Assembly (NCBI RefSeq): GCF_023343835.1
Contig: NC_064447.1
Location: 1,922,001-1,986,000 of the forward strand
Reading direction: 5' to 3'
Origin: Lagopus muta
Lineage: Eukaryota > Chordata > Aves > Galliformes > Phasianidae
Length of the DNA: 64,000 nucleotides
Every line of letters begins with the position of its first letter. Position 1 is the first letter of the stretch. Positions 25,597 through 28,601 of the stretch are shown here, one piece after another. A program made the position numbers and the translations under genes. The notes under the pieces were generated by a model. It was given only the letters and a program-made list of their open reading frames with translations. It was not told the origin of the DNA and ran no database searches.

Positions 25597-28500
25597 ATGG
25601 CTCTGCAAGGAGACGACTGCTACTACTATTTCAACTCCGTCTGTCTTAAGGTATGGTTGGGAGTCTTTTGCCTGGATGTTCTTCCTTTCCTCGCTTTGAA
25701 GAGGAAGGGCTGGAGCAGGGGGAGACCTGCTGGCGATGCGTTGCCTTCATCAGCAGAGGCATTGTGCGCTCCCTGCTACCAACCTGGGCCGACAGCACGG
25801 ACACCTTTCAGGCTGTGCTCTTATTCTCCTGTGTGCTTTCCTTTTGCTCACAGGGAGACAGATGTCCCTTCCGCCACTGTGAGGCGGCTCTGGGGAGTGA
25901 ACGAGTCTGCCGACTGTGGATACAGGGCTGCTGTTTCCGCAACGACTGCAAGTTCCGACACATGAAAATTGAAGTGAGTGTTTGCCTGAAGATGAGCTCT
26001 CCACCTCCCTCAGGCACGACCTGCAGCGCTGCATCTCTCTGCAAACCTCCTCTGCCTGTTTCCATGACCCTTCCTTTCTTTCTCTCTTCAGAAGCAGCGC
26101 AGTGCGGTTCCCTGCTATTGGGAGAATCAGCCGGGAGGCTGTCAGAAAGCCCACTGCCGTTTTCTTCATTTGAAGGAACGCGGTGGGAACGGACCGACCG
26201 TACCACCAAGTGACGGTGAGTTCCTGATGGCATGAAGCATGACAGACTTAATGATGAATATTAGTTCTGAGCGGGTGCAGGATGTCAGGTAGCATTCATT
26301 GGGGAGCGCAGGGAAGAGTGGTGATCAGTGAAATATTGGTTTGTGTTTTGGCTGTCAGAATAGGGGTGGGTTTTTTTCCGGAGAGAGGTCAGTGCATTGC
26401 AGGTCTGTGCTGACTGCAGAAACGGCACAACATTTGAGCAGGGGAAAGGTAAACACAAGAAACTATGCTTGAAAATTGGAAGCTTGTGGCTTGGTGTGCT
26501 GAAACCTTCCTCCAAAGAGATGCTCTTCAATTATTTCTTGTCTCCTTTCTGCCAGAAGCTGACACAAGCCTTCCCCTGAACAGCGGCCCTGCAGAAAGTC
26601 TGGAGAACCAGACAGAGGTTGAGGAGGCAGCAGAAGGAGGTACAGATACTGAACAGGCATCTGGGTTTCAGGCGCTGCCTTTCTACTCCCATGTTCTGAT
26701 TGTTCTCTCCTGGACTGTTCTCTGCAGGTGACATCCCATCTTCCTCCCATGGCCCCGCTGCGCAAAAGCGCAAGCGATGTGATGAGGAGGAGGAGGACGA
26801 CAAAGCTGAGGAACTGCCGCACAAGAAAAGAGTCAAGGGTGAGCACCAGGAGCTTGTTGCAGTGCCTCAGCACAGTAATGCAGCCACTCAGCATTGTTGT
26901 GTGTTAAAGTTTTCCTTGCCCTGGACTATTGCTGAGTGCAGCTCCTGGGTTTCTTTGTTCCTTTCGATGCGCTGTCGGTAGATGGAGAGGACTGTGTGCA
27001 AAACATTGCTGAAATCCTGGACATGGCAATGTAATTCCGCTGGCCAAATGTAGTTTACTTCCTGGAAGGGTTGTGGGAATGATAGGAGAACGGGGATTTC
27101 TTTTGAGGCACAGCAAGACCTTATCAGCAACCTCTTCCTTTTCCTTCAGCTGGACGCAAGGTGCGCGGGAGGCCTATTGACTGGAAGACCACCTTCCCCA
27201 CAATGCGGAGACGGAAGCGGAAAGCAGCGGAGATGCAACCATCTGCTGCTGAGGACGCCGATGAGCCTCCAGCCAGAAAACTACCTATGGTAAGAGCAGC
27301 AGTAGTGCATATGAGAGGTTTACACTGCTCTTGTAGTAATGGTAAAAGTTTCAAATGTTCCACAGGTCTTCTGTTTCCTCTGAAGGCAGCAGGTGTCTCC
27401 CACGGCACTTGTGGAAATTCTCTGTTGCAATTAGATGTACACGGATTTTGTCCATGAACGCTGCGCTGCTAAAAACTCCCAAGGTCACCTGTAACCTTCA
27501 AGGGAACGCTTTCTTCAGGAGCAATGCGCTTCTGTATCAGGGATCAGGCTCAGCAGCGCCCTGGAAGGGAGGAGCAGTCCTCAAAGATCATCCGGTGTTC
27601 CTCCTGCCCTACTGTGGCCAGGGCTGCCAGCCACAAGACTCAAATGCCTGGAAACCCATCCAGCCAGGCCCGGAATGCTTCTGGCAATGGGGCATCCACA
27701 GCTTCTCCTGAGAAAAAGAGCTACTTAGAAAATCTTTGAGCCCTGCTTCACACACACGGTCTTGTTTCTTCCTAGGCGATCCTTGCTTCAGTCCTGCCTG
27801 AGTACACCATTGTCAGCGTTGAAGTCCTGAAGCTTCCAAGCAGGTGATGACCGCTACTTGTTCTTCACCAGTGCCCTTTATCCACTGCACATAAGTTCTT
27901 TCACATCAGGGGACAAGTGGAGTGTCTGAGATGTGCCATGGCATAATCCAACAAGGGAAGAAGTCATCTGCACTAATTTCAATTGCTCACTCAAAGTCTC
28001 TGCTGAGTATGTCATGGGGAGCAGGAACTCAGTCTCTAACAGGTGGACGTAACAGAGGATGACTTCTTCACGTATTTACAGTCAAACAATGAGGCTGGCA
28101 GTGTGCTTCTGCTACAAAACCTGGCCCCTGTTGGCTGGACTCAAACTGCTCTGTCTGTACACATCAATTCCCACTGTGACACATGTGCCTGCTGGTATTT
28201 TGCACTCTCAAGGCAGCCTCAGGTTAACTGAATCGCCATCCCTATGCGAGCGTGAGGTGCGGGAGGGGTTAACCACAGATCTCAGAGCTGGTAGCTGAAA
28301 GCGTACCTGCAGTTAGAAATGTCAGGTGCTGATTGTTCTCTTCCTTGTTCTCCCCAGTCTGGAACTGCTTCCGGGAAGCCAGGCAGATTCTGTGGCACCA
28401 ATGGAGATCCCACATTTAACAACCTGTGCCACACAAGAAGCTGACCAGGCGCAGCAGCTGAGCTGCCCAGAGGTGGGGAAAGAACACTTCTCTGAGGATG

Positions 28501-28601
28501 AGGACCTCGAGAAGTTACTGATGGAATTCACTGAAGAAGAACTCGATGCAGAAATTGATGACGACTCTCTGGATACAGATGAGCTCCTAATGGAGCTCTG
28601 A
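25597..28601 (+). CDS. Compact ZC3H11A-like CCCH zinc-finger protein
   Basis: Eight exons were joined: 25597-25650, 25854-25973, 26092-26215, 26556-26639, 26728-26838, 27150-27289, 27776-27843 and 28358-28601. Phases agree and borders are GT/AG, giving about 314 residues. The start [12 protein letters not shown] matches human ZC3H11A MPNQGEDCYFFF. Three intact CCCH fingers follow: C8-x7-C16-x5-C22-x3-H26, C37-x7-C45-x4-C50-x3-H54 and C66-x8-C75-x4-C80-x3-H84. The middle has an acidic and lysine-rich part ([18 protein letters not shown]) and an AT-hook-like [10 protein letters not shown] near 168-177. [10 protein letters not shown] and EPPARK recall human KRKAVEMHAA and EPPAKK. The acidic end ([20 protein letters not shown]) resembles the ZC3H11A C-terminus. 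Human ZC3H11A is about 810 residues, so the long middle is absent. ZC3H11A binds RNA and works in nuclear mRNA export; that role here is inference. An ATTAAA follows at 28665-28670. Confidence 0.85.
27540..27740 (-). mobile_element. Possible old CR1 fragment
   Basis: In intron 6 of the ZC3H11A-like gene, the sequence shows a CR1-like antisense order: TCAAAGATCATCCGG, GGCCAGGGCTGCCAGCCACA, CCATCCAGCCAGGCCCGGAA, then GGGGCATCCACAGCTTCTCC. It is strongly diverged. Confidence 0.45.

Follow-up and report, generated by a model that had tools for sequence, protein, structure and literature searches.

The gene that we describe here lies at positions 25597-28601 (+) of the window, by which we mean the whole stretch of 64,000 nucleotides that was analysed (C18:1922001-1986000), and comparison with its copies in the same genome identifies it, as far as sequence can tell, as belonging to a multicopy family made up of truncated paralogs of ZC3H11A in two coding subfamilies. 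The joint reading of the collected evidence, which we hold to be fairly probable, is that within this family gene conversion homogenises the noncoding DNA, that selection keeps the two coding types apart, and that the encoded proteins would act as modulators or competitors of ZC3H11A. The gene is thus more interesting as a family member than as a single gene. No description of a truncated ZC3H11A family was found in the open-licence literature that was searched; automatic database annotations may list it.

The gene is real and looks intact. Its eight coding exons (945 nt, encoding 314 residues; Table 1) are separated by seven introns that all have GT-AG borders and agree in phase, with the start at 25597 and the stop at 28601. 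The product carries three N-terminal CCCH fingers (starting at C8, C37 and C66), and the Pfam model zf-CCCH_3 (PF15663) matched residues 1-101 with E 4.3e-45 and 152.9 bits, against a cut-off of 31, which is well outside what chance would give. The same three residue numbers were mutated in human ZC3H11A, according to the available part of PMC10371797. The product also contains a KRKAAEM block, an EPPARK block and an acidic tail, all of which have counterparts in the ZC3H11A-like gene on C27 that is described below. An earlier, sequence-only reading of the window had proposed a gene of eight exons with consistent phases and 314 residues at this place, with three intact fingers, blocks of the form KRKA.EM and EPPA.K and an acidic tail, and was right in each of these respects; it had taken the locus for a single gene, and there the genome search corrected it. 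Matches of the mid-region in the PDB (CHZ1-type, E 0.03-1.8) were taken as acidic-sequence noise, and a scan of the window with Rfam at gathering scores gave no matches.

Table 1. Features of the locus, in window positions; the three gaps are given in the local numbering of the C27 locus.
Feature	Position	Strand	Size (nt)	Remarks
Segmental duplication	21400..30693	.		shared with C18:1.69-1.715 Mb, rearranged and inverted, mostly 96-99% identical (some pieces 91-93%)
5' flank	23899..24469	+		homologous to C27 local 43-609, ~3 kb upstream of the C27 start codon
Exon 1	25597..25650	+	54	start codon, first part of finger 1; C27 c1 has the same 54 nt and the donor at the same place
Exon 2	25854..25973	+	120	rest of finger 1 and finger 2; C27 c2 is equal in length (120 nt) and phase
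Exon 3	26092..26215	+	124	finger 3; C27 c3 likewise 124 nt, with a phase-1 donor
Exon 4	26556..26639	+	84	remnant of parental c9 (middle region)
Exon 5	26728..26838	+	111	inner piece of the large parental c10; both splice sites within parental exon sequence
Exon 6	27150..27289	+	140	counterpart of parental c12, containing the KRK block
Introns 6 and 7 (first part)	27300..28060	+		not converged between groups 1 and 2, ~17% different
Exon 7	27776..27843	+	68	matches parental c13; 68 nt in both
Exon 8	28358..28601	+	244	acidic tail and stop; matches parental c14
Possible poly(A) signal ATTAAA	28665..28670	+		begins 64 bases past the stop codon
Gap 1	C27 local ~4615-7616			c4-c8 lost
Gap 2	C27 local 7966-8545			start of c10 lost
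Gap 3	C27 local 8679-10744			rest of c10 and c11 lost

A full-length ZC3H11A-like gene, separate from the window gene, is present in the same genome at C27:508.6-517.5 kb; its exons c1 to c14, including the large c10, were delimited by eye with the help of open frames and splice signals. The splice junctions of the two genes agree in phase and, for exons of unchanged length, in position, with the exception of the two around exon 5 (read by eye). The DNA match of exon 5 to parental c10 is weak (62% over 143 bases, E 2.5e-4), and the assignment is supported by relatives on C31, C25 and C37 that match the same part of c10. In the alignment of the two loci the missing material appears as three gaps (Table 1), and the KT(L/F) repeats, of which the C27 locus has four, number zero in the three forward frames of window positions 25400-28700. 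The comparison identifies the window gene as a DNA-level duplicate of ZC3H11A that underwent three internal deletions (c4-c8; most of c10; c11). The shared splice junctions and the gapped locus alignment exclude a retrocopy as well as middle exons hidden in the introns. A DNA duplication with loss of the middle, and not a retrocopy, was also what the sequence-only reading had argued for, from the view that the first two introns lie where ZC3H11A has them; in the C27 gene, c1 and c2 indeed have the sizes of exons 1 and 2. Its statement that the middle is gone holds for most of that region; exons 4 and 5 are remnants of it and contribute 65 residues. The case that it had named against itself, in which this would be the only ZC3H11A of the species with the middle exons concealed in the introns, has nothing in its favour that we could find and can practically be dismissed, given the full-length gene on C27 and an alignment in which the window introns pair with parental introns and the middle exons are absent.

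The neighbouring genes were identified with varying confidence. On the + side, matches were obtained to a NAGPA domain (E 7e-4) and to teneurin-type EGF (E 3e-8), both under the Pfam cut-off scores, and PRELI and CRAL_TRIO domains (SEC14L5-like) lie further right in the window. Far to the left there is a lysine methyltransferase exon (7542-7994, +), the domain of which we take to be EEF2KMT-like by synteny. The gene had been placed between ALG1 and NAGPA: the NAGPA side agrees with the sub-cut-off domain match, whereas no Pfam or NCBIfam model confirmed an ALG1 gene in the window, where it was named by eye from presumably conserved stretches. An ORF at 23277-23852 (-) was rejected as a neighbour gene; it has no Pfam match. 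Near the methyltransferase exon we observed an NDUFB6-like exon (4464-4763, -; Pfam E 6e-23), from a gene that is not known to lie next to this group of genes in human. Two repeated elements were observed as well. A block upstream of the gene (23118-23986) is found again, among the best 40 of 2429 candidates, with ~77-79% identity at numerous sites close to one end of C27 (5.5-5.8 Mb) and on C10 (48.2-48.5 Mb), C31, C39 and C30; on C38 its identity is 74%. A repeat fragment in intron 6 (27580-27705), which we guess to be CR1, has five further occurrences in the window.

The segmental duplication that holds the gene may extend further left, as its left edge at 21400 is the query start. The parental CpG island (C27 local ~2000-3000) gave no blastn match in window positions 21000-25700, and CpG is depleted upstream of the window gene (observed/expected 0.18-0.59). 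Since the parental island has no match upstream, the window copy must use another promoter, if any.

The genome (165 contigs, 1,026,658,476 bases) was searched with: i) PF15663, which yielded at least 36 exon-level matches; ii) the window protein, which yielded at least 98 matches; and iii) the DNA of the window gene, which yielded at least 83 matches, with the best 40 of 293 candidates scored. All three counts are lower bounds, and the copies named below are those among the loci that were retrieved. Eleven full-length open copies were verified (the window gene, L011-L019 and L020), nine of which are located on C18, the chromosome of the window. Group 1 (n = 4) consists of the window gene, L011 and L012 (C18, 1.70 and 1.71 Mb, minus strand) and L013 (C1). 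Group 2 (n = 7) consists of L014-L019 (C18, 0.59-1.09 Mb, four of them ~8.8 kb apart) and L020 (C7), which has an insertion of ~2.7 kb in intron 7, between exons 7 and 8, and still joins in frame to 315 residues. Less complete copies were found as well: L021 (C7) shows exons 4-6 only, L022 (C16) has a frame change in exon 8, L023 (C59) has a stop in exon 3 and shows nothing past exon 5, L024 (C2) carries stop codons and L025 (C1) is a broken relic. Among the distant relatives, those on C10, C48, C17, C11 and C85 showed no exon 2 and have lost cysteines of finger 3, and those on C37, C38, C39, C31 and C25 appeared as fragments only at the thresholds used, some of them with finger 3 kept. A pattern scan of viral and genome contig collections with the window protein returned 1 and 32 pattern matches, respectively, and no relatives among them.

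Some of the relatives in which no exon 2 was shown (L028 and L036 on C10, L029 on C48 and L030 on C17) have open exons 1, 3, 4 and 5 with splice signals and have lost finger cysteines. Relatives of this kind are arranged in rows, with 11 consecutive matches on C48 and 7 on C10, and the four loci possibly represent a finger-less family derived from ZC3H11A.

Between the two subfamilies, and most clearly on C18, much of the noncoding DNA is far more alike than the exons. The identity between the window gene and L014 amounts to 98.7% upstream, 95.1% in introns 1-5 and 98.0% in intron 7b, versus 86.7% in exons 1-6 and 74.5% in exons 7-8; it is 83.5% in introns 6/7a and 82.0% in the 3'UTR. Expressed as differences, these noncoding stretches hold 7/534 upstream (K 0.013), 45/915 in introns 1-5 (0.051), 5/251 in intron 7b (0.020) and 111/659 in introns 6/7a (0.191), and dS is 0.233 for exons 1-6 and 0.767 for exons 7-8. 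For this pair dS of exons 1-6 exceeds the divergence of introns 1-5 (Fisher p 2.6e-8), as dS does for L013-L014 (p 3.1e-5), and in the within-group pair of the window gene and L013 dS is mildly higher than the divergence of the introns (p 0.046). At fourfold sites alone the contrast between the window gene and L014 is weaker (9/72 vs 45/915, p 0.013) and that between L013 and L014 is not significant (p 0.26); the control pair, the window gene and L022, gave p 0.25. A 30-base divergence scan peaked over exons 1, 2, 5 (in part), 6, 7 and 8, with smaller peaks over exons 3 and 4 and one peak in the 5'UTR adjacent to exon 1. Between the groups the difference in exons 3 and 4 amounts to just ~8%, the first two thirds of exon 5 have 2 mismatches and a 9-base gap, with 10 mismatches in the next 30 bases, and dS per exon ranges from 0.11 to 1.5. 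The peaks over flat introns, in dS and divergence per exon, point to fingers 1-2 and the acidic tail as the parts that selection may keep different.

Besides gene conversion, two other origins of this mosaic were weighed, and both were ranked below it. If the copies were young, so that their introns show their true age, amino-acid selection could by itself have driven the exons apart, and dN between the groups in exons 1-6 (0.124) is indeed higher than the divergence of introns 1-5; we consider this improbable nevertheless, because dS is higher still (dN/dS 0.53 in exons 1-6) and introns 6/7a and the 3'UTR also differ by 17-18%, and such selection raises none of these. One of the groups might also have received its exons from the reverse-transcribed mRNA of a diverged paralog, which would let the peaks coincide with most exons and the adjacent 5'UTR, as they do. 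Such cDNA-mediated replacement fits poorly with the divergence of introns 6/7a and with a divergence that varies between exons (low in 3 and 4, with the wide range of dS) and within exon 5, and it strikes us as very improbable. Relative to C27, the group-fixed amino-acid differences in exons 1-3 (L020 left out) comprise 6 derived in group 1, 9 derived in group 2 and 9 ambiguous ones, so neither group alone has changed.

The trees of exons and introns appear to disagree in the position of L013, strongly on the exon side and in a manner that is suggestive, not decisive, on the intron side. L013 joins the window gene in the trees of coding exons 1-8 and of introns 6/7a (100/100), with rejection of a clade of all C18 copies in both (p 3.4e-4 and 9.8e-8, respectively); in the tree of exons 1-6 alone the two are joined with 92/93, which is not starred. 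In the tree of the upstream region and introns 1-5, L013 falls outside all other ingroup copies (100/98). For the latter regions a group-1 clade that includes L013 is disfavoured at AU p 0.067, and so not rejected, and the support for an all-C18 clade is only 59/39.

Of the 8 pairs tested over the whole coding sequence, 5 gave a dN/dS under 1 with p <= 0.024, including the window gene with L013 (0.39, p 1.3e-4), with L014 (0.49, p 5e-5) and with L012 (0.34, p 0.024), and L011 with L012 (0.17, p 0.016). No significant constraint was found for the window gene with L011 (p 0.14), L014 with L015 (p 0.07) and L014 with L019 (p 0.46). Indels in multiples of three make up 2/2 of those in the exons of L013, 5/6 in L014 and 6/7 in L020, versus 2/11, 5/22 and 4/28, respectively, outside the exons, and 3/6 in the exons of the broken L022. 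The exons carry an older divergence that is under purifying selection. It is unlikely, in our judgement, that the copies are mere passengers of segmental duplication, recently decayed or unexpressed, with open frames as leftovers: the missing parental CpG island, the many relatives that are broken or without finger cysteines and the 3 of the 5 closest within-group pairs tested that lack significant constraint would all suit such a history, but 11 full-length open copies, the low dN/dS in the majority of pairs and exon indels that are mostly in frame speak against it.

As the sequences show, ZC3H11A was copied as DNA, most of its middle was cut out by the three internal deletions, and the shortened gene is present in two coding subfamilies with an older divergence in their exons. 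In the history that we propose, interlocus gene conversion would homogenise the noncoding DNA between the copies and selection would remove converted exons, the two proteins presumably doing different jobs.

For the function of the product we rely on what is reported for human ZC3H11A. In the available text of PMC10371797 the fingers are needed for binding of PABPN1 and viral mRNA, and the nuclear signals are located at 284-304 and 661-699, with KRK at 669-671. The sequence-only reading had assumed that the export-factor contacts reside in the middle region; according to the same part of that source the contacts with THOC2, POLDIP3 and ALYREF survive deletion of the fingers, which gives the assumption indirect support, and they are not mapped to the middle. 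The window protein, which keeps the C-terminal KRK block, would most likely be a nuclear binder of RNA and PABPN1 via its fingers, with a predicted reduction in TREX coupling, and not a full TREX subunit. We guess from the look of the KT(L/F) repeats that they bind an export factor. Since the four repeats are missing, we would expect the window protein to modulate ZC3H11A, or possibly to compete with it, in the processing of mRNA 3' ends in the nucleus or in mRNA export. The ZC3H11A protein assists the exit of RNA from the nucleus; it is a TREX-associated host factor, the loss of which in HeLa cells stalls several nuclear-replicating viruses, as stated in the accessible portion of PMC7698620. 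A more specific proposal, to which we give little credence, is that both subfamilies are neofunctionalised decoys which, having the fingers and one nuclear signal but lacking most of the middle, compete with ZC3H11A for RNA and PABPN1 and in this way adjust the processing of mRNA in the nucleus, perhaps as a defence of the host against viruses that replicate there and need ZC3H11A, and that selection maintains two RNA- or partner-binding types against ongoing conversion. The truncated and apparently constrained bird copies would offer a natural separation-of-function form of ZC3H11A, with the fingers and without most of the middle.

Of the known systems, ZC3H11A itself, as represented by the C27 gene, is the closest: the window gene shares with it the zf-CCCH_3 domain, the C8, C37 and C66 fingers, most splice junctions, the KRK...EPP..K block and the acidic tail, and lacks c4-c8, most of c10, c11 and all four KT(L/F) repeats. 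By our reading of the sequence the first nuclear-localisation region is missing as well, whereas the KRK block is kept, and the last residues are neither SEMIDS, as in the C27 gene, nor SDIIDS, as in group 2. Another relative of ZC3H11A is ZC3H11B on human chromosome 1q41, which is called a pseudogene in the available part of PMC3369958, whereas the window gene has introns and an open, truncated frame; the name ZC3H11B is also used for a chicken gene (PMC10434033, available part). CPSF4/CPSF30 has a finger array that aligns with the window protein (PDB search, CPSF4, E 3.5e-8); only this array is similar and the family is a different one. For the mosaic between the groups, the available parts of PMC3213168 and PMC3924837 describe a comparable case in the primate L/M opsin genes, in which the introns are homogenised by conversion, the exons are kept different and the exon and intron trees disagree. 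These opsins are unrelated proteins and serve as an evolutionary analogy only; in the family described here most exons peak, and 11 open copies fall in two groups.
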